Source: Buxus sempervirens (taxonomy: Eukaryota > Streptophyta > Magnoliopsida > Buxales > Buxaceae). Taken from it: DNA of 64,000 nt. The notes below the pieces were generated by a model. It had not been told where the DNA came from and searched no databases. It worked only from the letters and a program-made list of their open reading frames with translations. The stretch is taken from assembly GCA_947561395.2 (NCBI GenBank), contig OX387185.1, forward strand, positions 19,866,366 to 19,930,365. Reading direction: 5' to 3'. Each line of letters starts with the position of its first letter. Positions within the stretch are counted from its first letter, which is position 1. Positions 6,130-64,000 of this stretch are shown here, piece by piece. Position numbers and translations under genes: made by a program.

Positions 6130-6376
6130 GGCGCGAGCTCTTGATCTGGTTACAGGAGCTATGATTGCAAGTGTATTAGTACCTAGCAAAAAGATAAAGG
6201 AAAAAGATCAATGCCCAATTAATCTCATTCACATGCCTAGGAATGCCTATGTGCAAGCTGGGTGAACACGAGTTTGGATTTTGTTTCTTTATTTGCTTCT
6301 TTTCTTTTTTTTTTTTGGAATTGAATTGTTGGAATATTCTAGGGCTTCCAACAGGTCCCACAATAAAGAGAAAATG

Positions 6377-7590
6377 ATCTGAAATTCAAAGGCTTTCAGA
6401 GGCCCGGGGGTATTTTTGAAAAAGGTCTGAAATTCAAAGGCTTTCAGAGGCCCAGGGATTTTTGAAAAAATTCTGAAATTCAAAGGCTTTCAGAGGCCCA
6501 AGGAGTTTTTGAGAAAAAGTCTGAAATTCAAAGGCTTTCAGAGGCCCAAGGATTTTTTGAGAAAAAGTCTGAAATTCAAAGGCTTTCAGAGGCCCAAAGA
6601 GTTTTTGAGAAAAAGTTTGAAATTCAAAGGCCCAAGGAGTTTTTGAGAAAAAGTCTGAAATTCAAAGGCTTTCAGAGGCCCAAAAGATCTAAAATTCAAA
6701 GGCTTTCAGAGGTCCAAAAGAAAAAGATCTGAAATTCAAAGGCTTTCAGAGGCCCAAAAGATCTGAAATTCAAAGGCTTTCAGAGGCCCAAAAGGAAAAA
6801 AAAGATCTGAAATTCAAAGGCTTTCAGAGGCCCAAAAGATCTGAAATTCAAAGGCTTTCAGAGGCCCAAAAAGATCTGAAAGCCTTTGGCTTTCAAAGGC
6901 CCAAAAGATCTGAAATTCAAAGGCTTTCAGAGGCCCAAAGGAAAAAGATATGAAATTCAAAGGCTTCCAGAGGCCCAAAGGAAAAAGATATAAAATTCAA
7001 AGGCTTTCAGAGGCCCAAAAGATCTAAAATTCAAAGGCTTTCAGAGGCCCAAAGGAAAAAGATCTGAAATTCAAAGGCTTTCAGAGGCCCAAAAGACCTG
7101 AAATTCAAAGGCTTCCAGAGGCCCAAAGGAAAAAGGTCTGAAATTCAAAGGCTTTCAGAGGCCCAAAAGATCTGAAATTCAAAGGCTTTCAGAGGCCCAA
7201 AGGAAAAAGATTTGAAATTCAAAGGCTTCCAGAGGCCCAAAGGAAAAAGGTCTGAAATTCAAAGGCTTTCAAAGGCCCAAAAGATCTAAAATTCAAAGGC
7301 TTCCAGAGGCCCAAAGGAAAAATGTCTGAAATTCAAAGGTTTTCAGAGGCCCAAAAGATCAGAAATTCAAAGGCTTTCAGAGGCCCAAGGAGTTTTTTGA
7401 GAAAAAGTCTGAAATTCAAAGGCTTTCAGAGGCCCAAGGAGTTTTTTGAGAAAAAGTCTGAAATTCAAAGGCTTTCAGAGGCCTAAGGAGATTTTGAGAA
7501 AAAGTCTGAAATTCAAAGGCTTTCAGAGGCCCAAAGAGTTTTTGAGAAAAAGTCTGAAATTCAAAGGCTTTCAGAGGCCCAAAGGATTTT
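6377..7590 (-). repeat. Tandem array of about 30 units in E's leader
   Basis: By eye there are about 30 copies of a unit with the core CTGAAATTCAAAGGCTTTCAG followed by AGGCCCA. Variable tails give unit lengths of about 33, 40 or 49 bp. CTGAAA and TTTCAG in each core can pair. The array lies between the PBS and gag. One unit (near 6878) is rearranged and one (near 6620) is shortened. Occasional open frames through it are by-products of the repeat. Confidence 0.95.
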
Positions 7591-18379: not shown

Positions 18380-19226
18380 CTGATTGATGTACTTTTTCGC
18401 AAGTGCACAAATTCGTAACAAGTAATAAAGTGATGAAATAGAGTGTCGAACCCACAGGGAATTGTAGCTACTAAATACTGAAATTACTATCCTAAATTTT
18501 ATTTGGATAATCAAAAAGTGAGATGGGTGTTTAACTAGCAATTAAAATTATTAACTAAGAAAATAAAAGAGTAAGATTCAATAAGAGATTAAAAATACTA
18601 AGGCATTTGATTTCATCATAAGCCAATCTGAATTAAATCTTGAATACACATGCTACTGAATTTTATAATCCAATTTGAAAGCGAAAATCCCTATCCTATC
18701 CAATGGTCTCTCTCGAGTACCAACGAACTTACCTCCCCACGATAACTCACGATATCTCTATGTGAATTTAAAAGCAAAAAGGCACATTAAGATCTGTGGA
18801 CTTTCATGTACAAAACACAAAGCTACATAAACCATGTCAATATCTCTATCAACATGTAGAATATGGTATTTTATCACAGGAAATAAAATTGTATATCTCC
18901 TCTCAGTCTCAATACAACTACCAAATACAACTGAATGGTGATCAAGTATTCAATTGGATTAAGCACAATAATAAAATACTCAAAGAATGAATCATAAATT
19001 CATTAGCAATAATATTCAGAATTAAAACATCATGTTTAGATTACATCAAAGCCTTAGTAATAAAAGTTAGTTCATGATTGAACTAAGAACAACCATCAAA
19101 AACAGAGTATAATAAAAGAAAGAGAAGAAATAAACTAATGACGATCCAAGCTCTGATCTCTCCTACAGTCCAGCTTCCTTCTCACGTTCCCAGCATCAAC
19201 TCTCCCTTTTCACGTTCCAGCTCTCT

Positions 19227-19236
19227 CCTTTATAGA
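19227..19236 (-). promoter_or_regulatory. TATA box in D's 3' LTR
   Basis: The minus strand reads TCTATAAAGG. The equivalent in the 5' LTR (30530-30539) carries a substitution that breaks TATA. Confidence 0.65.
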
Positions 19237-19471
19237 AATCCCATAAGCTTGCCCAAGAATCCTTGAAGAGGAATAGAAACTTTCCTTTCAATAAAACTCC
19301 TAAGGAAAAGAGAACTTCCTTTTCTTGTATATCCACGACTTAGAAGTCCAAAAACGACCTAATCTCCTCAATTAGAAACCCTTTAAAATCCTCCTAAAAG
19401 CTAGAAGAAGATCCCCAAGAAAAAGGAAACAAATCCGCAAAGTTCGGAATTTTATAACAGTTTTTACTACT

Positions 19472-19695
19472 TGATCGTTCGAACGACTATCGAACGCGAG
19501 TCGAACGTTCAAGTCAAACAATTGTTTCCTCTTCTCTTGTTCGAACGTTCATCGAACGGCCAGCGAACGCTGCTCTCGGATTTCTCTGTAGAACACTAAC
19601 GTTCTAATGACAGTCGAACGGCCAGCGAACGCTACTTTTGGGTTTTTCTGCAGAACACTAATGTTCGAACGACAATCGAACGGCCAGCGAACGTT
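19472..19695 (-). repeat. GTTCGAACG motif cluster in D's 3' LTR
   Basis: Three to four units of about 65-70 bp contain GTTCGAACG and the string CGAACGGCCAGCGAACG, separated by a TTTCTCTG[CT]AGAACACTAA spacer. It lies about 235 bp upstream of the TATA box. Most words are self-complementary around TTCGAA. Confidence 0.85.
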
Positions 19696-19885
19696 GATCA
19701 TAACTTCTGCAATTTGACTCCGAATGTTACGCCGTTTGAACCGTGACTTCTATAACCACCAAGAATATCTCTACATCAACAAATTAGGCACAATTTAGAC
19801 AATGAAAATAAAATACAAAGATGAAATAAAACCAGATAAGTCATGAAATTAATGTGCTATAATGTGGTATTTTCATGACTTATCA

Positions 19886-19897
19886 CACCCCCCAACT
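19886..19897 (-). other. Polypurine tract of element D
   Basis: The minus strand reads AGTTGGGGGGTG immediately before the 3' LTR start TGATAAGTC. Confidence 0.8.
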
Positions 19898-20144
19898 TAA
19901 TTTTTGCTGGTCCCTAGCAAAACTGAACTAAAACAATTAAAATAGAAAGTCATAACTATACCACTTTCGCTGGCACTCTCGATTGCATTTAGCATATGCA
20001 ACAAGCCTTTAAACCCCTAGGTGCCCCTAGTGGACGAGTTATAGTCTCGTGAGGGTTTACCAGGATGATACCCACAAACATGAAATTGATTTCAAACACA
20101 TGCTATCAAAGAAGATAAAGCAACACCCAAAACAACAGTTAATA

Positions 20145-20470
20145 TGTAACATCTTGTCTGGTAGCTGTGAAGGTGTAGAGCTCACATGGAAAGCTACAGG
20201 CATGGATGTGCATATGATTGGGATCCCACAACGCTCGGGGATGCTATAAGTAACCTTAAGACCCCCAAATTAGCAAGAGGCCTTTTAAGGAACAACACGA
20301 GACTAAATCCCCTGGGGACTCCAAAGTTAAGCGTGCTCGGGTGAGAGCACTCTTAGGATGGGTGACCCCCTGGGAAGTTTTCTCGTGATGTGCCTTAAGA
20401 ACAAATCCGTGAGGGCCCTTTGGGCCCAGAGCAGACAATATCTTGCTGGTTATGGGTCTGCGGTGTTACA
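20145..20470 (+). repeat. Cassandra 5' LTR
   Basis: It starts TGTAACATC and ends GCGGTGTTACA. It differs from the 3' LTR at three places seen by eye: near 20339 in the 5S-like part, in the GATGTGCC word near 20390, and near 20440. Confidence 0.93.
20315..20390 (+). promoter_or_regulatory. 5S-rRNA-like segment with pol III internal promoter words
   Basis: AGTTAAGCGTGCT (20325-20337) matches the 5S box A. AGGATGGGTGACC (20355-20367) followed by CCCTGGGAAG matches the intermediate element and box C region. In plants these words drive RNA polymerase III on 5S genes. The repeat in the 3' LTR lies at about 20722-20797. Confidence 0.88.
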
Positions 20471-20551
20471 AATGGTATCAGAGCCTACCCCGACCGAAAA
20501 CTGTGCGGGTCCGGCCCAACGCGGGGACGCGTTGTCCCATGGAGGGGAGTA
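20471..20551 (+). other. Cassandra internal region: PBS and PPT
   Basis: TGGTATCAGAGC (20473-20484) is the initiator-Met tRNA PBS. GGAGGGGAGTA (20541-20551) is the PPT. The roughly 55 bp between them are GC-rich and non-coding. Confidence 0.92.
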
Positions 20552-20877
20552 TGTAACATCTTGTCTGGTAGCTGTGAAGGTGTAGAGCTCACATGGAAAG
20601 CTACAGGCATGGATGTGCATATGATTGGGATCCCACAACGCTCGGGGATGCTATAAGTAACCTTAAGACCCCCAAATTAGCAAGAGGCCTTTTAAGGAAC
20701 AACACGAGACTAAATCCCCTGGGGACTCCAAAGTTAAGCGTGCTCAGGTGAGAGCACTCTTAGGATGGGTGACCCCCTGGGAAGTTTTCTCGTGATGTCC
20801 CTTAAGAACAAATCCGTGAGGGCCCTTTGGGCCCAGAGCGGACAATATCTTGCTGGTTATGGGTCTGCGGTGTTACA
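20552..20877 (+). repeat. Cassandra 3' LTR
   Basis: 326 bp, the partner of 20145-20470, with its 5S-like segment at about 20722-20797. Confidence 0.93.
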
Positions 20878-20882
20878 TAATA

Positions 20883-22119
20883 TTCAAGGATAACTTAAAA
20901 TTTGAAACTCCATGTTCACGATCTTAAGAAATCAACAATGAGCCTAATCACTTATACTTAGATAGTGGAACATCACAAGTGCCTTTGGTGTAAAGTGATC
21001 TAACACATCATTATGAGGCTTCAAAATAATTCCATTATAAAAGTTCTAACAAACCCAAATTCAGAGGACTCCTTATTTGATGAAACAACCAAAGCATGAA
21101 ATTTTGACTTTCATTTTCTATATTTCTTTTTTTTTTCTTTCACAACATGTGGACTATGTAAGGTCTAGCTTCCTTAAGCTTTCTAATTGACCCATTTATC
21201 GAGTGTTGGACCAATGACTCCCGAACCAGAAGGCTCAAAGGGCATTAGGTGTGAAGACACCCCTACAAGTTTTACTAACTCGAGTCAAAAAGGCTACAAA
21301 GCTAAACTAGCCACATTATCAACCATTTAAGACTCCTTACCTTTTGACGCGAACAATCATTGCTTAGTGAGGCAAGAGGCCTGGTTACTTAGTAAAAAGG
21401 AGCTCAAAATCTCTTAGCACTGTTTGTTACTCTGAAAAAAAAAATTTCTTTTCTCATACCACAAATACCATGCCAAAGTTGTCCATCTATAAGTCAATCA
21501 ACCGAACTCAAGTTATCAAAACTTCTATGAATGGTTTCAGTTCTCATACCCCACACACAATGCATTAGTGTGCTCGTGCTAAGTTCAAAGTGAGACAAAT
21601 GAAATCACACTATCCAAAGATAAGTAATAAAGGCCAAAATTTAGATCTCCCAGTCATGTGATTATGTGTTCAATTGTTTAAGCTTAACCAAGAATATTAA
21701 ACTAATTGGATTGCTAGGCATGAGCTAGAAATTCACATCACAAAGAAAACTATCCTACCAGCAGGCTATTCAGCACATCAACTAAAAAATCTGGGTTTGA
21801 GATCACCAAAATAGAGGTCAACAAAACATGAGATTTCAGCACAACTCCCCCAATTTGAATCTAACATTGCCCTCAATGTTCAATAGCAAAATGAAAATAA
21901 AGAGAAAGGGACAAAATACTCCCCAGATTTTCAGATGTTGAGATGGACTGTAGGATGGACTTGTATGACTATGAATAACCTTCAAGAACCTGAAAAAAAA
22001 TAATAATAAAAAAATGAGTAAAAATGAAAGTAGAATACAAAAAAATAAAATGAAAAACACTTGGGTTGCCTCCCAAGAAGTGCTTGGTTATAGTCATTAG
22101 CTTGACTGAAAACCATCTT
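20883..22119 (-). other. Element D 3' non-coding region
   Basis: AT-rich DNA between integrase and the PPT, shared with 19898-20139. Many Athila elements carry an env-like ORF here; none of useful length is visible. Confidence 0.7.
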
Positions 22120-23231
22120 TTATGTTGACGGGTGGAGCAAATAGGAGGACTTGTAGTTCTTGAAATCCTCATCAACATAAGGCTTTAATCTCTGACCATT
22201 GACCTTGAAGGTGCCTTTTGTGTCATGATGAATTTCTACAGCTCCATGGGGGTAAACTGTTACCACAGTGAAAGGGCCAGACCAATGAGAACAAAGCTTG
22301 CTCGGAAAAAATCTCAGCCTAGAGTTGCAGAGTAACACTTTCTAGCCAACTAGAAACTGCTTCCGTTGAATGTGCTTATCATGCCAGAGTTTTGTTCTGT
22401 CCTTGTAAATTCAAGCATTCTCATAAGCATCAAGCCGAAATTCATCCATCTCATTTAGTTGTAGAAGCCTCTTCTCTCCAGCTGTCACAAGATCAAAATT
22501 CAAAGTTTTCATTGCCCAGTAGGCCTTGTGTTCTAATTCCACCGGGAGATGACAAGCTTTTCCATAGACAAGTCAGTATGGAGACATCCAATTGGTGTTT
22601 TGAAAGCAGTCTGGTATGCCCACAATGCATCATCAAGCTTCTTTGACCAATCCTTTCGGGATGAGTTAACTGTCTTATCCAATATGCGCTTCAGTTCCCG
22701 GTTGGAAACCTCAACTTGACCACTTGTTTGGGGATGATAAGGAGTGGCAACTCTATGTGTAACACCATATTTACGTAAGAGTGCCTCAAAGTGCTGATTG
22801 CAAAAGTGTTTTCCCCCATCACTAATGATTGCTCTTGGAGTGCCAAACCTGGTGAAATTTTGTTTTCTCAAAAAATTCAACACAACTTTAGAATCGTTTG
22901 TAGGGAGGGCTACTGCCTCTACCCATTTGGAAACATAATCAACAGCAACTAAAATGTATTGATTTGAGAAAGATGAAGGGAATGGTCCCATAAAATCAAT
23001 GCCCCAAACATCAAATAATTCAACAACAAGATTATTGTTTAGAGGCATTCATTTTTTTCTTGAAATATTTCCACTTCTTTGAGATTGATCACATGCGGAA
23101 ACAAAAGCAAAAGAATCTTTAAAGAGGGAGGGCCAATAAAAACCTGATTGTAGCACCTTAGCAATAGTTTTGTTTGGTCCAAAATGGCCTCCAACTTCGA
23201 GTGAATGACAATGCTTTAAGATATTCTCCAT
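22120..23231 (-). pseudogene. Element D: integrase
   Basis: Integrase joins the cDNA copy to the genome. The N-terminal zinc-binding region begins with HCHSLEVGGHFGPNKT (two His). In its Cys half the pattern reads CDQSQR, so one zinc-binding Cys appears lost. The catalytic core shows [24 protein letters not shown] and [11 protein letters not shown], so the D, D and E positions are present. The C-terminal part ends with FKVNGQRLKPYVDEDF, typical of Athila. A homopolymer indel near 23050 and a frameshift near 22590 break the frame. Confidence 0.88.
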
Positions 23232-24453
23232 CTCTTCTTCAGGTACACACTCCTAATGATTTGATCTTTGCAATGCTTGTAAAGGAAAGGATCTTCCCAA
23301 AAGTAATGCCTTACATCCGAAAAGAATTTCTTCTTTTGTTGATATGAGAACTCCGGATTGACCACATTGCCAACCAAGTAATTCACAAAATTTGCATACC
23401 AGGGAACTTCTATTAATGAAAAGGCAAGAAGTTGTTCATCAGGAAATACCTCATTGATTGGGATGGATGTGGTGGCTTTTTCATCTTCAAGCTCAAGTCG
23501 AGAGAGATGATCAGCTACTTGGTTCTCGGTTCCCTTCTTGTCTTTGATCTCCAAGTCGAACTCTTGCAAAAGTAGAATCCACCGAAATAGCTTTGGTTTT
23601 GCCTCCTTTTTGGCTAGCAAATATTTGAGGGCTGAATGGTCAGTATATACAATAACCTTGGAGCCAATCAAATAAGATCTAAACTTATCAAAGGCAAAAA
23701 CTACAGCCAATAATTCTTTTTCAGTTGTAGCATAATTGAGTTGCGCATCATTCAAGGTCCTACTAGCATAGTAAATGACATGCAATAATTTATTTTTCCA
23801 CTGTCCTAAAACAGCTCCTAAAGCATAATCACTAGCATCACACATCAACTCAAAAGGTAGCTCCCAATCTGGTGCACAAATTATTGGGGTTGAAATCAGT
23901 TTTTCCTTCAAAAGTTCGAAAGCATGCAAATAGTCTTTTTGAAAAAATAAAAGGTGTATCCTTGACCAATAAGCTACAAAGGGGTTGAGTGATTTTAGAA
24001 AAATCTTTAATAAAACGACGGTAAAACCCCGCATGCCCAAGAAAACTCCGTACACCCTTGATTGTTGTGGGTGGAGGTAATTTTTCAATAACCTCCACCT
24101 TGGCTTTATCCACTTCGATCCCTTTGGATGAGATCCTATGACCAAGCACTATTCCTTCCTACACCATGAAGTGACATTTTTCCCAATTTAACACAAGGTT
24201 AGTTTCTTCACATCTTGTCAATATCATAGATAAATGATTCAAACAAGCATCAAAAGAGAAACCAAAAACAGAGAAATCATCCATGAAAGTTTCCAGAAAC
24301 TTTTCCACCATGTCAGAAAATATTGCCATCATGCATCGCTGAAAAGTGGCTGGAGCATTGCACAAACCAAAAGGCATCCTCCTATAGGCAAATGTTACAT
24401 AGGGGCAAGTAAAAGTAGTCTTCTCTTGATCTTTTGGTGCAATTTGGATTTGG
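23232..24453 (-). pseudogene. Element D: RT C-terminal half and RNase H
   Basis: Continues the RT interrupted by A2. It has MPFGLCNAPATFQRCM, then the RT active site in FMDDFSVF (Met-Asp-Asp type). A stop follows at about 24160. The thumb and connection region contains [21 protein letters not shown] frameshift near 23945 lies in an A/T run. RNase H follows, with [35 protein letters not shown] and [16 protein letters not shown], and ends with the tether-like VADHLSRLE. Confidence 0.88.
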
Positions 24454-24630
24454 TTGTATGTAAAACCCCGTTTATTTTTAGGTTTGATGGAAAAAAAAAT
24501 AAAAATAATTACAATAATAAATATCTAAACTAATAAGGTGTGGATGTAGGGGTTTTGGTGGGCGAGCTCACACAATATCAGAGTTGAAAGGGGTCGTCGA
24601 GCAGCAAGCGTCCAAGCGTATTGCAGAAGG

Positions 24631-24639
24631 TATAAATAG
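24631..24639 (+). promoter_or_regulatory. TATA box of A2
   Basis: TATAAATAG, about 170 bp inside the LTR in sense orientation. Confidence 0.7.
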
Positions 24640-25207
24640 TTTAAGAAATTAGGTTTTGGGTTTTTGCCTTGAATACGCGTATATTCTACTGAGAAGGTTG
24701 CGGCTGCGGCTTTTGTTTAGGGTTCTTCGAGAAAAGGAGTTGGAGAGGTTTTGGTGGGAGAGTCGAGCTAAGGAAGACTTACTGCCAGTAAGTTTTTGCC
24801 AAGAAGAAGTTCGGAAAGGCTTTCTTCCTTCAGAAAACCCCTGCTCGACCAGAGCAAGCAGATGGCCGAAGTGATTGGGGATTTTCTGGGTTGCTGTTGC
24901 CAAGACTTGGAAGCATAAAAAGGTGAGTGGCACTGTTTTAAAACCTGGTTTATGTTATTTGTAGATTTTGTTTCAATGAATACATGGTTATCGAATGAAT
25001 TATTCACTGGGTTTCTGGGCGAAGACAGTCCGAAGGGTTTTTTTTGTATAACAAATTGGGGATAATTGAAAAGTATGTTAGATTAAATTCAAAATAGGTT
25101 TGAATGTGTTCTGGGGGTATTAGGAGACTAGAGAAGTGGTTACAGACTGAAAAATTTCGGCCAGAGTTGAAGATTTGGATTTAACAAAGACTTGAAAAAC
25201 ACAGTGG

Positions 25208-25482
25208 GTATCCGCCCACTTGGCACCCACTTGCACCCACTTCGGGAAGTAGGCGCATAGTAAAAACTGACCTGGCGCCGAGCTCGCGCCCACTTGGCGC
25301 TCAGCTCGCGCTCACTTAAAAAGCATGCGCAAATCTCACGCGAAACTGGCGCCGACCTCGTGCCCATTTCCCGCCCATCTTGCGCTCACTTAGTATCGAG
25401 TGAGCGCCTAGCCAAATTTTGCCTGATTCCTATCCGCTGACTGGCGCTCACCTGGCGCTCACTTCAGGAGGTGAGCGCATAG
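25208..25482 (+). repeat. GGCGCTCA motif cluster in A2
   Basis: About ten variants of GGCGC[TC]CA / CGCCCACTT with intervening ACTTGGCGC words, in otherwise AT-rich sequence. GTGAGCGC words on the opposite strand can pair with GCGCTCAC words. Confidence 0.8.
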
Positions 25483-25984
25483 TCCACTTTTATTGCTGAA
25501 TTTCATAATTGAGTAAACCAATGGGGATTTTGATGCTAGAAGGTCTTCGATCACTTAGCAAAGTACTTGTTTAGGACATTAGAGACAAAATTACTTATGA
25601 GAACATTGAAGATAGATTCTAGAATTTCGTAAGAGCTTCCAAGGTAGATGTAGGGCAACATTTTAGGTGATGTTCTGGATACCCAACACGGGGGCTTTTA
25701 ATTTAGTTCTTTTTGGATTACACACTGTACTTGATTGAGATTTATTAAACCCTGTTTTCTTGATGGCAAGTTCTGAACTATGTTGCAAGGATTATTTACT
25801 TGTGTGAGTTGATGTTCTAGCTGGAACAACTTGTGATGTGTGCACTGAATGCGGAGTTTTTATCGGTTATTTATCGGCTTTGGGTTTAGCTTCCCATGGA
25901 TCCTTGATAAGCTTAGTAATGTGATGGTATGTGTTTATTGGTGTAATTTCATGGCCTTGTGTGTTGCCACGACTAGTGTAGAGC

Positions 25985-26108
25985 AGCCAGATACCCTGAG
26001 TAGGCCTGGTTGTCAGTGCCGATACCCGGAGTAGGCCGGCATTGGATGACGATACCCTGAGTAGGCCGTCATTTCAAAGTGTCCGATACCCTGAGTAGGC
26101 CGGAACTG
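25985..26108 (+). repeat. Four-unit hairpin array with covarying stems
   Basis: Four hairpins share a 15-nt loop, ATACCCTGAGTAGGC (one base changed in the second). Stems differ but all pair: CCAG/CTGG (25987-26009), TGCCG/CGGCA (26017-26041), ATGACG/CGTCAT (26046-26072) and TCCG/CGGA (26082-26104). Unit spacing is about 30-36 bp. Confidence 0.93.
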
Positions 26109-26284
26109 TGTACATGGAGGTGTGGAGTGTCTACTTGGCATGTAAATTAATCAATGTAACCATATGCATGACATTGACCTTGTTTTGTGTTGTTATCGGA
26201 AGTACGTTGTTTTAAATTGTTGGTTATTTGTCGAAGCATGTCTTATAACTGTGTTGACTATTTCTGCATGCATGTGTCACTCGC

Positions 26285-26328
26285 TGAGATATTCGTATCT
26301 CATCCCTCGTTTTTGTTTTGTTTTTCAG
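26285..26328 (+). other. Conserved LTR-end hairpin of A2
   Basis: TGAGAT/ATCTCA around ATTCGT (26285-26302), then CCC and a T-rich tract ending TTTTTCAG. Same design as 1945-1988. Confidence 0.7.
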
Positions 26329-26659
26329 ATCTTCGTGGTGAGGCGCCTACGGGGGTAGATCCGACTGACACCTATAGGGAGGAGGATTATTACTACTGTC
26401 CTTAGACTAGTGGGTTGCTTGGTCTTAAACTTTGTTAAATTGAATTTGTGGGAATTGTAATAAGGTAGTAAGTTGGAATCATTTGATGTATTTGAAGATG
26501 CTATAAATTGCCTGGATGAGAATTTTAATTGTGCACTCTGATGTGATGTAAATTGTATGTGATTATCCAGCGATCACCATTTTTGGGGATCCTTAACTAA
26601 CCCCTGGGAGATGTGTTATATCTTTAATGAAAAACACGGATCCGGGGCGTTACATTGTA

Positions 26660-27596
26660 TGTTGAATATCCATCAAGAAAACAGTAATAAGCATGACCAG
26701 CAAGCCTTTCCAACATTTGATCAATAAAAGGGAGTGGAAAGTGGTCTTTTCGAGTGGCATCATTGAGTTTCCTATAATCTATGCACACCCTCCAACCTGT
26801 TACTATTCTTGTTGGAATAAGTTCATTGGTTTCATTCCTAACAACTGTAATACCACCTTTCTTTGGTACTACTTGAACTGGACTTACCCATGAACTATCA
26901 CAAATTGGATAGATGATACCTGCGTCCAGCAACTTGAGAACCTCAGACCTTACCACTTCTTTGCATGTTTGGATTGAGCCTTCTTTGTGGTTGTATCGTG
27001 CTCTTGTGGCTCTCCTCCATAAGGATTTTGTGCATGCAAATTGAAGCACTAATCCCTTTTATATCGGCTATTGACCAACCCAATGCTGATTTGTGAGCTC
27101 TTAACACCCAAAGTAGTTTCTCTTCTTCAAGACCTGTCAAAGAGGAAGAGACAATTACTGGAAAAGAATTTTCAACTCCTAAATAAACATATTTTAAATG
27201 AGAAGGTAAAGTTTTAAGCTCAAGCTTGGGAGGATCAGAAGTCAGTAAATTCTGTTGAGAGGCTTCTTTCTTATGAAGATCTTCAAAATTTGGCTTCTTC
27301 TTGTGAGTGTAAGGTGGTGAAGCCTCTAAATAGAGTGCACACTCTCTAATGCTCATGTCTATAGAAGAAATATTCCCTGATTTGGTAATGCATGCTTCTA
27401 GTAGTTCCCTTGGATTATTTTCCTTGAAGGTATCTGAAACCAAATTGTTGATGGTATCAATCTGAAAACATGAATCACTTGTGGAGGGATGCTTCATAGC
27501 TTCGAACACATCAAACACAATCTGTTCCTCTTGCACTCTAAGTATAAGCTTTCCTTGTTGGACATCAATAAGAGTTCTTCCTGTATCTAAGAATGG
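26660..27596 (-). pseudogene. Element D: protease-RT linker and RT N-terminal half
   Basis: The in-frame continuation after the stop at 27597-27599. It holds the linker (LKTLPSHLKYVYLG), the LEEEKLLWVLRAHKSALGWS region and, after a one-base insertion near 26955, the RT fingers: LLDAGIIYPICDSSWVSPVQ, VPKKGGITVV, WRVCIDYRKLNDATRKDHFP. It breaks off at the YSTYN motif, where A2 is inserted. The minus-strand C-terminal half resumes at 24453. Confidence 0.88.
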
Positions 27597-29585
27597 TCAG
27601 CCTAGGATGAGTGGAATTTCTCTGTCCTCCTCCATGTCCAATACAATGAAATCTACAGGAAAAATAAACTTGTCAACCTTAACAAGAACATCTTCTATGA
27701 TACCTCTTGGGTATTTGATGGATCGATCCGCTAGTTGGAGAGATACGGTTGTTGCCTTAGCTTCACCAATCCCCAATTTCTGGAAAACTAAAAATGGCAT
27801 TAGATTTATACTTGCTCCTAAATCACATAAAGCTTTATTGAAGTGAGAATTTCCAATTGTGCAAGGAATAGTAAAACTCCCTGGATCTTTTAGCTTTTGT
27901 GGAAGTTTATTTTGCAAGATTGTTGTACATTCCTCGGTTAGTATCACCGTTTCATGATCCACCCATTTTCTCTTGTTAGACAACATTTCCTTCATGAACT
28001 TGGCATAAGTAGGCATTTGTTCCAATGCATCTGCAAAAGGGATGTCTAGAAACTTAGAAAATTGCTTGTCCAACTTATTTTTTCTCAATCTTTGTGGAAA
28101 AGGAATAGGAGGAACATATGGAGGAAGAGTTTTAGAAAGCAAATCTGTTTTTGTATTTTCTTTGTGCTTCTCATTTTCCTCTTCTTCATCTTCTTTTCTC
28201 ACTTCTTGCTGAATTTCTAGATTTTTCCCACTCCTTAGGGTGATGGCTTTAGCATGTTCTCTTGGATTGGTGATAGTATCACTTGGGAGAGACCCTTGAG
28301 ATCTTTCTGCCAATTGCTTTGAAAACTTCCCCATTTGGTGCTCAAGGTTCCGGATGCTAGCATCTTGGTTTCGGAAAGTAGTCCTTGCTTCTTGCATGAA
28401 TCCTGAAGTGTCTTGCATGAACTTGGTAAGCAATTCCTCCATATTTGGCTTCTTTTCTTGCTGTTGGAACCTGGGAGGTTGCTTATTGATATTTTGAGGA
28501 CCATTCCAAGAAAAATTTGGATGATTTCGCCATTCGGGGTTGTAAGTATTTGAATAGGGATTTTTTGGGCATTGAAAGTTGGAGACATAATTGGCTTGCT
28601 TGGATGCACCCATGGCAAAAGAGTTTCCAACTTGACATTCAACACTTGAATGATTCCCTGCACAAATTTCATAAACAAAATGAGTAGATTGAACAGCATT
28701 CACATTAATATTATCTACTTTCTTTGACAATAAAGCAACTTGAGAAGTTAAAGAATTTATGGCAACAATTTCATGAACTCCCTGAATTTTTCTTGGTCCC
28801 AAATGATCTGATGGCCATTGGTAGTTATTTGAGGCCATTTGCTCAAGTAAATTGTAGGCTTCTTCAAATGGCTTCCCCATCAATGCTCCTCCCGCTGCGG
28901 CATCCACAATTGTCCGTGTATTTGGACTCAATCCATTATAGAAGGTTTGGACTTGCAACCAATTGGGTAAACCATGGAGAGGACATCTTCTAAGCAAGTC
29001 CTTATATCTTTCCCATGCTTCATATAGTGACTCCATGTCAAATTGAGCAAAGGTAGTGATATCATTCCTCATCTTAGCAGTTTTTGATGGAGGAAAGAAC
29101 TTTGCTAAAAAATTTTGAGCCAAACCATCCCACGTAGTGATGGTCATTGGTGGAAGTGAGTTTAACCAACCTTTTGCCTTATCTCTTAAAGAGAAAGGAA
29201 AGAGCCTCAACCTTTTTGCATCATCAAAAACTCCATTGTGCTTGAAGGTATCACAAATTTCCAGAAAATTTGCAATATGAGCATTGGGATCATCATTCGG
29301 CATGCCACTGAATTGCACGGTTGATTGGATCATTTGAATGATGGCTGGCTTTATCTCAAAATTATTGGCTTGAATGGCTGGCCTTCTAATGCTTGTATGA
29401 GCCCTGGTGACTAATGGCATGGCATAGTCTCTCAAAGCCCTATTGTTCTCCTCTTCTTCAATTTGATTTGCCATTTCAACTGGAGAGTTATTCAAAACTT
29501 GCCTCTTCTCCTTGTTCAACCGCCTACAGGTACGATCAATTTCGGGATCACAAGGAAAGATTTCAGCACTTCTTGAGTGTCGCAT
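27597..29585 (-). pseudogene. Element D: Athila gag and protease
   Basis: Start chosen at the first ATG (29585; MRHSRSAEIFPCDPEI), preceded in frame only by non-ATG codons. The gag core is intact: DPNAHIANFLEICDTF, LRLFPFSLRDKAKGWLNSLP, ESLYEAWERYKDLLRRCP, ASNNYQWPSD, the usual Athila signature. The zinc-knuckle area retains CAGNHSSVECQ. Near the C-terminus the protease site reads ALCDLGASINLMP. The frame is open for about 660 codons and ends at a TGA (27597-27599), where the family has Arg in the conserved LG-R-PF motif; this is a single C-to-T change at a CpG. It is the least damaged coding piece in the window. Confidence 0.93.
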
Positions 29586-29663
29586 ACACAAGACCTGAAA
29601 TAAAAATTAAAAATCCAAATTAAAACTGAGAATAGATAGTATCAGTATTAGTAAACAAATAAA

Positions 29664-29681
29664 TCCCTGGCAACGGCGCCA
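29664..29681 (-). other. Element D primer-binding site
   Basis: The minus strand reads TGGCGCCGTTGCCAGGGA, a few bases from the LTR end. It resembles the tRNA-Asp-type site usual in Athila elements. Confidence 0.88.
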
Positions 29682-29687
29682 AAAACT

Positions 29688-31230
29688 TGATGTACTTTTT
29701 CACAAGTGCATGAATTCGTAACAAGTAATAAAGTGATGAAATAGAGTGTCGAACCAACAGGGAATTGTAGCTACTAAATACTGAAATTACTATCCTAAAT
29801 TTTATTTGGATAATCAAAAAGTGAGATGGGTGTTTAACTAGCAATTAAAATTATTAACTAAGAAAATAAAAGAGTAAGATTCAATAAGAGATTAAAAATA
29901 CTAAGGCATTTGATTTCATCATAAGCCAATCTGAATTAAATCTTGAATACACATGCTACTGAATTTTATAATCCAATTTGAAAGCGAAAATCCCTATCCT
30001 ATCCAATGGTCTATCTCGAGTACCAACGAACTTACCTCCCCACGATAACTCACGATATCTCTATGTGAATTTAAAAGCAAAAAGGCACATTAAGATCTGT
30101 GGACTTTCATGTACAAAACACAAAGCTACATAAACCATGTCAATATCTCTATCAACATGTAGAATATGGTATTTTATCACAGGAACTAAAATTTTATATC
30201 TCCTCTCGGTCTCAATACAACTACCAAATACAACTGAATGGTGATCAAGTACTCAATTGGGTTAAGCACAATAATAACATACTCAAAGAATGAATCATAA
30301 ATTCATTAGCAATAATATTCAGAATTAAAACATCATGTTTAGATTACATCAAAGCCTTAGTAATAAAAGTTAGTTCATGATTGAACTAAGAACAACCATC
30401 AAAAACAGAGTATAATAAAAGAAAGAGAAGAAATAAACTAATGACGATCTAAGCTCTGATCTCTCCTACAGTCCAGCTTCCTTCTCACGTTCCCAGCATC
30501 AACTCTCCCTTTTCACGTTCCAGCTCTCTCCTTTACAGAAATCCCATAAGCTTGCCCAAGAATCCTTGAAGAGGAATAGAAACTTTCCTTCCAATAAAAC
30601 TCCTAAGGAAAAGAGAACTTCCTTTTCTTGTATATCCACGACTTAGATGTCCAAAAACGACCTAATCTCCTCAATTAGAAACCCTTAAAATCCTCCTAAA
30701 AGCTAGAAGAAGATCCCCAAGAAAAAGGAAACAAATCCGCAAAGTTCGGAATTTTATAACAGTTTTTACTACTTGATCGTTCAAACGACTATCGAACACG
30801 GGTCGAACGTTCAAGTCAAACAACTGTTTCCTCTTCTCTTGTTCGAACGTTCATTGAACGGCCAGCGAACGCTGCTCTCAGGTTTCTCTGTAGAACACTA
30901 AAGTTCGAACGACAGTCAACGGCCAGCGAATGCTACTCTCGGGTTTCTCTGCAGAACACTAACGTTCGAACGACAGTCGAACGGCCAGCGAACGTTGATC
31001 ATAACTTCTGCAATTTGACTCCGAATGTTACGCCGTTTGAACCGTGACTTCTATAACCACCAAGAGTATCTCTACATCAACAAATTAGGCACAATTTAGA
31101 CAATGAAAATAAAATACAAAAAATGAAAGACTTTGACAATTTCTAAGTAAAATTGGGAATTAAATATGAAATAAAACCAGATAAGTCATGAAATTAATGT
31201 GTTATAATGTGGTATGTTCATGACTTATCA
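29688..31230 (-). repeat. 5' LTR of element D
   Basis: 1543 bp, the partner of 18385-19885. The GTTCGAACG cluster lies at 30777-31005. The TATA position (30530-30539) reads TCTGTAAAGG on the minus strand, so the promoter copy that would drive transcription of D looks damaged. About 43 bp at 31117-31166 are absent from the other LTR. Confidence 0.95.
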
Positions 31231-52190: not shown

Positions 52191-53437
52191 CCGAAAATGA
52201 TTTTCTGCATTTTTTAGCAAGAAGCCAGTCTAGGACATTTGTGAGCATGTATGAAGCTCTTGTGGGCCTACAGTGGTACGAATGATAGCCATTTGGCTCA
52301 TCTCTTTGGGGCTTTCAAGACCAAACACTAGGGGATCAAAGGGGTTTCCTCCCCCTTTTCCAAACCAAAGCAAGGGCTAACCAGGGGTCTGAGTATCCCT
52401 GGTTTGTTTTTCCCTTGCTCCAAAACAAGCTAACATGCTTTCATGGGGACAAATATCACACAAAAATCACACAATATGACTTACCTAGGCATGCTTCTCA
52501 TGCCTTTCATGGCCTCAAACAGTGACTAAAAAAAAGATGGAAACCATATGGAAAACACATGCAAACAATGGAACTTACGAAACCTAAAAGATGGTGATAT
52601 CTAAAGAAAGGAAGAAGAGGGGGCTTACGCTTGGGTTACATTAAGATTCAAGAGGGAGGAACATGCTCCTCTTATCGTGACAAACAAAACAATAAGGAGA
52701 ACCCTCACAATAGTGGCACTATGGTGTTGTAACAACCACCTTAAGCCAACCAAACCATTCCCTAGACCCTCTTGGAACTACCGGTACCATCTTCTCTTAC
52801 CATAGAAGGGTATTGAACCTTAAAGCCATGAAGAAGATGATTGGGGCGGGGGGGTGAGGGAACATACATGGTGAGCAACAAATCATATCCTAGCATGCTT
52901 GAATATCAACTTGCTCCAAATGAGCTTAAATTTACATATGATGAATAAAACCTAGTCGGGAGCCATACCTTACAATTGAACTCTCCTTGGATGGTGTTTG
53001 AACCCACTTGAAGGCTCCACAGCAGCTTGAGCTTCCTCTCAACTCCAGCAAGTCCTCCAAGATCTCCTCCAAGTGGTAGCAATGAGGAAGAATGGTGGGT
53101 AAGGGGCTTGGGAGGGGTTGTGTAACGCCCCGAACCCGGGTCAGTGCAAACCAGCACCCAACCTGAACCCAGTTCGCTACTGTAACAACTCAAGTCCGGT
53201 TCAACAACCAAAACCAAGGTGTTACCACGAAGCTGGGGTCAGATACACACTAAGATTCACAATAATTTTTAAAACTAATTAATTACATCAGAGTTCTGGT
53301 GGGAAATAAAACAATTCTTTATTCAATTTAATCAATTCAGTTTACAATAACATTTGTTTAATCAACATGTGACATTAATATCAATTACAATTCTACCCAT
53401 CAAATAAAACCCCATCTTCACGATCTCTCCAAGCAAC

Positions 53438-53476
53438 CTGAAAAATAGGGGAAAACGGAATGAGATTTATATCTCA
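53438..53476 (-). other. Conserved LTR-end hairpin of A3
   Basis: In sense: CTTGCTGAGAT, loop ATAA, ATCTCA (53461-53476), then a T-rich tract and TTTTTCAG. Confidence 0.7.
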
Positions 53477-53714
53477 GCAAGTAGTAGGTGCATGCAAGTA
53501 AACAGTCTCATTTAGGCAAATAGTCATGAGGTATACGATTAATCAACGATAAGGCGACGAATTCAAATCAACATGGCCAATTCCAAATAAAGCAATAGGA
53601 TATGCAATTATACGTAAATACCAGTAAAAAGATGTTACGATAGATAAAACTGAAGATTAGTGATAAAACATGTATTCATAATTAATGGTCCATCTCACAA
53701 ATCCGATAGTAACA

Positions 53715-62321: not shown

Positions 62322-63740
62322 ATTTTATGAAAAATTGGATTTAAATTATCCATATTATCAATTTCTAAAAGAAACAGCCGCCTAAGACAATTGGAACAGA
62401 AATTTCAGCATCTCAATTTAATTCGTCCAAAACAAAATCTAGTTGTGCTACTTAGTTCTAAATGCCGATTTCGAGTGATTGAAATTCTCAAATCCTCAAG
62501 TGAAGATTATCAATACCAATTCCAAATCTAATTGCATCAGAGTTCACTAAATTGAGTGGAATAACTGAAATTATTACTCCGTATCAAATAGAAGGTTGCT
62601 GCCCCTGGTATAACTCAACTCCACCTCCACAGAGATGATGATCAGATCCAGATCTCTCTCTCTCTATCCTCCACTGAATTTCTAGATCTAATCCTAAAAA
62701 TTAATAAAATCGGAAATTAAAAAAATTTCTCTATAATCCTCTCCTTATGATTTCCTTTGTAACAATATACACCTCAATTTTCTAATTATAGTACTTCCAT
62801 GCACTCCTCTAGAGGCAAAGTCTCTGAAATTTCTTGTAAACATCATGATTACCATCCCCAAATTCTGATGGAGAAATTCTTCCCATAATTTCACTTTTGT
62901 CTTCTAAAATCACCACGCTTCCACTGCGCATTCACTAATTTCCAAATTACCAACACTTTCTCAATAATCCTCATGAATCCAACCACTTATAATTTCTTAC
63001 TCTCACTAACCATACTTACTAATAATATTAAAATAACTCAAAAGAGAATATCATGACTTTCTATCACCCACCCTTTCAAATATATATATGCATCTATATG
63101 AAGGTTAAGGAAAGAAATCACGTAAATCCTCTTCCGGCTCAAATTAAGCAGAATAGCACACAACAATTTCTTATAGATGTATAAATCGTACATTACATAT
63201 CCCATATGTATAAAGCTTATTACCCAAGTAAGTGTTCAGCATTGGCCGATGCCTTACATTACTCAAGTATAGCTATATACCTATGGCTCATCATCCAATT
63301 AAGCACACAGTAGCATGTATGCTTAATCAACCATCACCAATTTCATGCTTCAAATATAATCATCCACAATTAAGATTATTTCACATTCCCTAAACATTTA
63401 TCTTACTATTTATCTCTACCTCTTTTACTTCTCAGGATCTTCAAGTTCCTTCCGATTAGAACTACAATAACTTTTCTCTAACCATGCAAAATTAATAATA
63501 ATAATAATAATAATAATAATGCATTATATCACAAATAACAATCATATCATACCAAATAATTGTAGCATAAGGTTCAAGTAACTTACCTTTAATAATAAGG
63601 ATTGCCGCTATATTTTGTAGAAGGAACACTCTCATCCTAAATTTCCTATATAACTGGTGCTAACTAACGTGCACACAACCCCCGAGGCCATCCTAGGGTT
63701 TCTTATTTCTATGCCATGTTTCCTTTCAAAACTCTGATAT
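62322..63740 (-). other. G internal non-coding region, PBS-proximal
   Basis: AT-rich, no protein recognised. Contains an (AAT)n run at 63492-63520 and a (TC)n run near 62655. Confidence 0.65.
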
Positions 63741-63752
63741 GCTCTGATACCA
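63741..63752 (-). other. Primer-binding site of G (initiator Met)
   Basis: The minus strand reads TGGTATCAGAGC, two bases from the LTR end at 63755. Complementary to initiator-Met tRNA. Confidence 0.88.
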
Positions 63753-63754
63753 TC

Positions 63755-64000
63755 TGTAACGCCCCGGAACTGAGTTACGTAATGAAATCGTAACTCGTCC
63801 CCGAGGAGTTAGCTTTTCAATACAGGATTGCTATATCAGAGTAAGGAAAACATGAAATGGCAATAATAAAATCAAAGTCAACTAAAATTTTCCCCAACTC
63901 ACCTGAACCAAGCATATACCCGCCTGTATCGTCCTTTCTGAGATCTGAAATCAAAACAAAACAGTGAGATACAACTATCTCAGTAAGTAGCAATGCATGC
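63755..64000 (-). repeat. 5' LTR of G, partial
   Basis: The plus strand starts TGTAACGCCCCGG. Includes the conserved end hairpin TGAGAT/ATCTCA at 63965-63982 with the T-rich tract and CAG on its downstream side (63944-63964). It continues past the window. Confidence 0.82.

Follow-up and report, generated by a model that had tools for sequence, protein, structure and literature searches.

Tandem hairpins with a common loop in an LTR of Buxus sempervirens: a candidate RNA signal for packaging or export in plant chromovirus-type retrotransposons

The window, that is, the whole stretch of 64,000 nucleotides of Buxus sempervirens DNA that was analysed, contains a solo LTR of 2196 bp on the plus strand (TGTAAAACCCCG...CGGGGCGTTACA, 24459..26654), which is flanked on the left (24454..24458) and on the right (26655..26659) by the target site duplication TTGTA. 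The TG...CA ends and the 5-bp duplication by which this class of repeat is defined are thus both found, and the identification also draws on the RT frame that the insertion interrupts, on homologous LTRs and on a relative with an internal region. The interrupted host is a Ty3/gypsy element on the minus strand (18384..31128), whose own LTRs (18384-19826 and 29687-31128) are 97.5% identical and which has gag (27597-29606) and RNase H matches; relatives of its integrase stretch carry an rve domain, and the break of its RT frame by the solo LTR is seen in translation. The original prediction had placed an array of hairpins in an LTR that it called A2, and the LTR location held, but the repeat is a solo LTR that has no second copy in the window at E<1e-10, where weak local matches only were found. 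The TATA box TATAAATA lies at 24631..24638 on the plus strand, so that transcription would start near 24660, and the array is found about 1.35 kb downstream of this box. At 25205..25490 (plus strand) the same LTR is filled with imperfect copies of GCGCTCAC/GTGAGCGC in both direct and inverted orientation, and elsewhere in the window a dense tandem repeat block with overlapping self-matches occupies 6365-7590.

The array is composed of four hairpins read on the plus strand: unit 1 (25983..26013) is GCAGCCAG - ATACCCTGAGTAGGC - CTGGTTGT, unit 2 (26014..26044) is CAGTGCCG - ATACCCGGAGTAGGC - CGGCATTG, unit 3 (26044..26074) is GGATGACG - ATACCCTGAGTAGGC - CGTCATTT, and unit 4 (26078..26107) is AGTGTCCG - ATACCCTGAGTAGGC - CGGAACT, with one bulged G. 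They are supported by core search, folding, a random-flank test and a between-unit test. The bounds first given for the array were 25985..26108; unit 1 begins at 25983 when its full stem is counted. The core ATACCCTGAGTAGGC starts at 25991, 26022 (with one T to G change), 26052 and 26086, giving a spacing of 31, 30 and 34, and when up to 2 mismatches were allowed it was matched four times in the whole window, always in the array, against a mean of 0.04 in shuffles. The perfect Watson-Crick stems that close the loop measure 4, 5, 6 and 4 bp in units 1 to 4. When G-U pairs are allowed, the stems of units 1-3 reach at least 8 bp and the units adjoin each other; the stem of unit 4, read by eye, is formed by 4 bp, the bulged G and then AGT/ACT. 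When the 3' flanks were randomised, the observed sum of unbroken stem runs was matched by none of 2 million draws and the observed total of pairs by one of 2 million. Additionally, among all 24 possible re-pairings of the arms the true partners gave the top score, and in the four-unit alignment 90.6% of cells are paired, with changes on both sides in 6 of the 8 pairs. The between-unit covariation score was 0.833, compared with 0.30 in shuffles (0 of 500 reached 0.833) and at most 0.25 when the alignment was slid. Thus the central claim of the original prediction, one constant loop on four different paired stems, was borne out by the core search, the random-flank draws, the re-pairing test and the shuffles alike. 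For single units RNAfold calculated −6.7 to −14.9 kcal/mol when the plus strand was folded and −9.8 to −13.0 kcal/mol for the minus strand, values so similar that energy gives no choice of strand. The window was also scanned for adjacent hairpins whose loops resemble each other while their stems differ. Of the 13 pairs returned, three are this array, nine have loops of 5-7 nt and one belongs to the block of imperfect repeats in this LTR. A 68-aa reading over part of the array gave no match in a protein search.

The array belongs to an abundant family. In the assembly (676.5 Mb, 247 contigs), 14,419 exact units GAWACCCNGAGTAGGCC and 2,867 exact cores ATACCCTGAGTAGGC were counted, and the reversed-pattern control gave 0 in both cases. 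Stretches around cores were fetched as 40 short and 20 long loci, followed by 40 more short loci in which pair 2 was to be changed (L091-L130, selected by a pattern requiring T or G at this pair in one unit), nearly all of them from contig C1, with which the listings begin. The spacing of 31/30/34 is kept in 34 of the first 40 short loci. In single copies, L034 and L066, duplication has enlarged the array to five units, and second arrays lie about 315-350 bases from the first in L088, L090 and L082; in those of L082 and L090, unit 3 is without its loop and retains its stem. Pieces of LTR elsewhere show 66-93% identity to the window LTR, and one piece of 169 bp shows 98%.

As for the element to which such LTRs belong, perfect target site duplications surround a single LTR in 4 of the 5 other copies that were read at both ends, and these four are therefore solo LTRs. 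The primer motif TGGTATCAGAG followed the right end of the LTR in none of the 15 right ends read, and the remaining copies among them could be solo or 3' LTRs. Genome-wide, GGCGTTACA is followed by TGGTATCAGAG within 6 bases at 974 places, in this or related families. At one such place (L134/L135) the LTR start, the donor-like site described below, the array, the acceptor hairpin and the primer motif TGGTATCAGAG are found in the same element, and several open frames there encode Retrotrans_gag, RVP_2, RVT_1, RT_RNaseH, Integrase_H2C2 and SH3_Tf2-1 (92.8 bits), with rve (31.3 bits, cut-off 32.6) and Chromo (23.1 bits, cut-off 25.1) both just under threshold. The two array-bearing LTR stretches of this relative are 97.3% identical, the 3' LTR being internally deleted. 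Its gene content, together with its array, indicates that the family is of the Ty3/gypsy chromovirus type, an assignment that for the window LTR takes its internal-region evidence from this relative, since the window copy is a solo LTR. The family is presumably the one named Tekay/Del, and the primer site of the relative is taken to be that of a tRNA-Met primer.

When 14 other LTR copies were compared with the window LTR in 50-base blocks, identity was 45-84% before 25759, rose to 95-99% over the conserved block that holds the array (25909..26158, plus strand) and was 98% at 26259-26308. The copies had been picked by exact cores, a bias that touches at most 45 bases of the 250-base array block, and six of the 20 long loci (L072, L080, L081, L082, L088, L089) are partial LTRs and were left out of this alignment. 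The TATA box is kept in 7 and altered in 5 of the 12 other copies that cover it.

Pairing across copies was evaluated in 84 non-identical arrays, namely the window, 38 from L031-L070, 14 from L071-L090 and 31 from L091-L130, after the exclusion of loci of other families (L094, L098, L110, L113, L127) and of clusters that had fewer than 3 recognised units, were shorter than 55 nt, were without a near-exact core or duplicated another array. In these arrays 2,389 of 2,471 stem cells are paired, against 2,188 ± 74 (maximum 2,355) in 2,000 tree-based simulations. Chance-level pairing in other copies had been named beforehand as the outcome that would speak against a structured motif, and the stems of the other copies are paired beyond chance. 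Doubly compensated cells numbered 38 against 26 under the same null (p=0.15). Taken pair by pair and uncorrected for the number of pairs, double changes gave p=0.006 at pair 2 of unit 1 (65 of 80 arrays have A-T there, and 10 have C-G) and p=0.04 at pair 2 of unit 2 (55 of 81 have C-G, and 10 have A-T). An R-scape-like scan of 23,041 pairs in the 84 arrays found no pair at E<0.05, in our opinion because most copies are recent; its sum over the stems, 127.8, was higher than in any of 100 nulls (maximum 109.6). The covariation check that had been proposed therefore came out mixed, with pairing that none of the 2,000 simulations equalled but without a pair at E<0.05 and with double changes at p=0.15.

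More distant comparisons are in line with retained pairing. At least 5 of 6 pairs, with G-U allowed, are formed in 73.5% of 306 units, and when the stems were grouped greedily into 33 classes, of which some are spurious or out of frame, the class representatives had 100 of 198 Watson-Crick pairs, against a mean of 65 and a maximum of 92 in 10,000 shuffles. Changes of stem length also affect both arms, as an extra base on each arm of unit 1 is found in 8 of 84 arrays and bases of unit 4 are lost jointly on both arms in some of them. The arms of unit 4 occur as AGTGTCCG/CGGAACT, AGTTTCCG/CGGGAACT, AGTTCCG/CGGAACT and ATATCCG/CGGATAT, and its bulge is absent in some other copies through changes on one or both arms. 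Changes of pair 1 on both sides gave 99 matches (81 A-T, by hand count) where about 50 were expected from single-change counts, a figure that was left unused, since unequal copy ages could explain it. In summary, a structural constraint on the array is well supported and pairing is kept, but textbook covariation inside the recent family is weak.

The same loop is found in further LTR groups. In L131 and L132 it is carried on ATTCTG/CAGAAT or ATTCCG/CGGAAT stems inside tandem units of 62 and 118 bp, and a second repeated hairpin, GGAGTG-ACCCATGATAAA-CACTCC, lies alongside in both (L132:963-1510, 118-bp units; L131:1845-2134, 62-bp units). L132 matches the acceptor region of the window LTR at 81% over 78 bp, and hairpins of the CTCCATGAGGGAG type occur close by. 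In L133 two units stand on still other stems, which are partly paired. The claim that the loop and the pairing are conserved and the stem sequence is not thus extends to other copies and to related LTRs.

Such observations bear on a purely mutational origin, in which template switching at quasi-palindromes would match the arms and tandem duplication would multiply the unit. The joint insertions and losses on both arms could each be a single template-switch event, and units do expand in single copies, as the five units of L034 and L066 illustrate. However, conservation peaks on the array and its flanks, G-U pairs (unit 1 pair 5, unit 3 pairs 7-8) stay fixed and are not corrected to perfect pairs, and one loop is retained in several LTR-like contexts despite changed surroundings, so that a mere by-product of mutation is considered distinctly improbable.

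The position of the array within the LTR suggests that it is carried by a leader intron. The window LTR contains a single AGGTRAGW motif, AG|GTGAGT, with its GT at 24923-24924, and a single pyrimidine-rich YAG, TTTTGTTTTGTTTTTCAG, ending at 26328, so that a putative intron on the plus strand (24923..26328, with AG at 26327-26328) would enclose the array. The donor GTGAGT is present in all 15 LTRs, the window included, the sequence preceding it being unalignable in four copies of one group, and the acceptor is CAG in 12 of the 15, again with the window, and CAA in 3; the donor-like site also occurs in L134/L135, the relative with primer site, gag and pol. Shortly before the acceptor-like site, within the block of 98% identity at 26259-26308, stands the hairpin TGAGATA-TTCG-TATCTCA (26285..26302, plus strand), whose CTCAT we take to be branch-point-like, with its A at 26302. 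Other stretches before an acceptor-like site read TGGGAC-ATTA-GTCTCA or TGGGACT-TTA-AGTCTCA, with pairing retained. ATG is found once in the 265 nt of the putative first exon, 31 times in the 1,404 nt of the intron and 8 times in the 326 nt of the second exon; in simulated LTRs the scarcity in the first exon has P=0.04, and the second exon has none. Since the splice motifs by themselves arise by chance in 12% of simulated LTRs and the ATG signal is weak, it is from conservation that we infer the intron, and the array probably lies inside it, between a conserved donor-like site and a conserved hairpin with its acceptor-like site. According to the part of a recent review that was available, introns are generally absent from plant LTR elements (PMC12786077).

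The acceptor module, a hairpin followed by a T-rich tract and CAG, was also found at three more LTR-like places of the window, 1880-2030 on the plus strand and 53380-53560 and 63740-64000 on the minus strand, the last of which continues into an LTR end and TGGTATCAGAG. In the four places the stem TGAGAT/ATCTCA is constant and the loop varies (TTCG, GTTG, ATAA, ATTCGA). No core-like unit with up to 3 mismatches was found in the 0.3-1.5 kb searched near the three other places, the third of which is at the window edge with hardly any sequence upstream, which indicates that the array is not a general part of the acceptor module.

This location is compatible with another function, in which the array would be an intronic scaffold that sets intron removal or lets ribosomes pass the AUG-rich leader, with no role in packaging or export. 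Such control of splicing or translation would agree with the position of the array in a probable intron, where some 220 nt separate it from the acceptor downstream, with the second conserved hairpin that covers the branch-point-like site and with the difference in ATG content between the putative first exon and the intron. However, a loop that is repeated four times points to a binding partner more than to mere structure, and the scarcity of ATG is weak in the first exon and absent in the second; this explanation is therefore regarded as rather unlikely.

Whether the hairpins act in RNA or in DNA was approached through the polarity of stem changes, as the original prediction had argued that the extension of stems by G-U pairs favours RNA. 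Changes shared between arrays agreed with this, with 14 G-U against 7 A-C in the 84 arrays (the first 53 gave 13 against 4), but terminal-branch changes (48 G-U against 41 A-C) and the first pair genome-wide (855 against 843) did not. All polarity events together were 62 G-U and 48 A-C (p=0.11), a full-set count that omits pair 2, on which L091-L130 had been chosen. The balance of C-to-T and G-to-A changes does not differ between stem and non-stem columns (p=0.48 in 84 arrays, 0.09 in 53). Recent changes are expected to be neutral, and the genome-wide count thus says little and gives the RNA reading no help.

An action in DNA, where the units of the LTR would form cruciforms, bind proteins or be targeted for silencing, is in keeping with the strand symmetry of Watson-Crick pairing, with the similar predicted energies of the two strands and with a polarity of changes that is not decisive; in the available part of a report on Sirevirus LTRs, the repeated palindromes of those elements are described as possibly regulatory (PMC2829016). 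Unlike those motifs, the array lies downstream of the TATA box, and its free stem sequence is ill-suited to a DNA-binding protein. A loop of 15 nt on 6-8 bp makes a poor cruciform, and the shared changes lean to G-U, so that a function exerted in DNA is judged quite improbable. An RNA element is likely the better reading, favoured by the probable leader location and the free stem sequence, and the formation of the hairpins in RNA is supported by the constraint on them.

Considering these findings together, the compensated stems, the genome-wide units, the pairing above the null, the conservation peak and the location flanked by splice-like sites point to an RNA signal. In an LTR retrotransposon of the Ty3/gypsy chromovirus type, the array would act in cis as an RNA element, situated downstream of the TATA box in the part of the LTR that is presumably transcribed as leader and, being in a probable intron, carried by the unspliced full-length RNA only. 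Each unit would display the same loop, the stem sequence being free provided that pairing holds, and the four adjacent units would offer several sites to one protein that recognises the loop, for which the Gag nucleocapsid encoded by the element itself and an export factor of the host are the likeliest candidates. This binding would tag the unspliced RNA for packaging or export, and the spliced RNA, which would be without the array, would be translated. That the array is a repeated-loop signal of this kind on unspliced element RNA is given about even chances. The wider proposal, that several plant chromovirus-type LTR groups share an undescribed class of repeated-loop signal and that an LTR-encoded leader intron lets splicing sort the packaged or exported genome RNA from the translated RNA, is put forward tentatively, as possible rather than probable.

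LTR retrotransposons make up much of plant genomes, and little is known about what sets their genomic RNA apart from messenger RNA; the available part of the review mentioned above names no packaging signal sequence in plant elements (PMC12786077). If the proposal is true, the array would be a signal by which plant Ty3/gypsy elements have their RNA packaged or exported. With more than 14,000 exact units in one genome, it constitutes a concrete and testable candidate, and its loop offers a handle on the binding protein. Additionally, the results suggest that conserved RNA structure can reside in long plant LTRs, which are often seen as regulatory DNA that evolves fast.

Comparison with known systems began with the databases. 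Rfam, ribozyme families included, gave two sub-threshold matches for 24300-26800 of the window and none on the array, and a published description of such an element was not found in the one open library searched, in agreement with the earlier statement that no element of this kind had been described in plant LTRs. Viral contigs yielded no array and one single core (L001). Among prokaryote genomes a first search found none and another gave 21 loci, mostly of an unrelated dispersed repeat; this repeat, seen in bacterial metagenome bins (L002, L005-L022), is often tandem and has the form TGTCACCCCGAGTAGG-(variable short stem)-CCGTATCGAGGGG, with constant outer arms and a variable inner hairpin. 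Four of its loci are titled Eremiobacterota and the others only 'bacterium', and the 11 bases that it has in common with the plant core are probably due to chance.

The closest system in print, as far as the available part of its report goes, is the RM boxes of Sireviruses, symmetrical motifs that likewise recur within a plant retrotransposon LTR. They belong to Ty1/copia elements, lie upstream of the TATA box and repeat one palindrome per element, in most cases with CGG-CCG as its core (PMC2829016). The array, by contrast, combines a constant loop with varied stems in a Ty3/gypsy element and departs from the criteria for Sirevirus repeated motifs, as its unit stems differ and it lies downstream of the TATA box. 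In barley, the available part of a study describes separate pools of BARE RNA for translation and for replication, arising in part by splicing, and neither 'hairpin' nor 'packaging signal' was found when its main text was searched by whole words (PMC3735527). BARE is a plant LTR element of the Ty1/copia type, unlike the Ty3/gypsy element of the array. Among animal retroelements, the CTE of MPMV is an export element with a repeated loop. The RTE of mouse IAP and the MTE of MusD are structured cis elements that export unspliced retroelement RNA from the nucleus, as stated in the available part of the review (PMC12786077). The array differs from these three in being formed by four small hairpins, and it is likened to them by description, not by sequence. 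Finally, in the retroviral psi, as in the paired stem-loops of gammaretroviruses, tandem hairpins with a common loop lie in the leader downstream of the splice donor, so that unspliced RNA is chosen. The array has a different loop, belongs to a plant element and stands in a much larger leader, where Gag binding and splicing are putative; tandem hairpins with a common loop, a feature of retroviral-type packaging signals, are nevertheless present in it.
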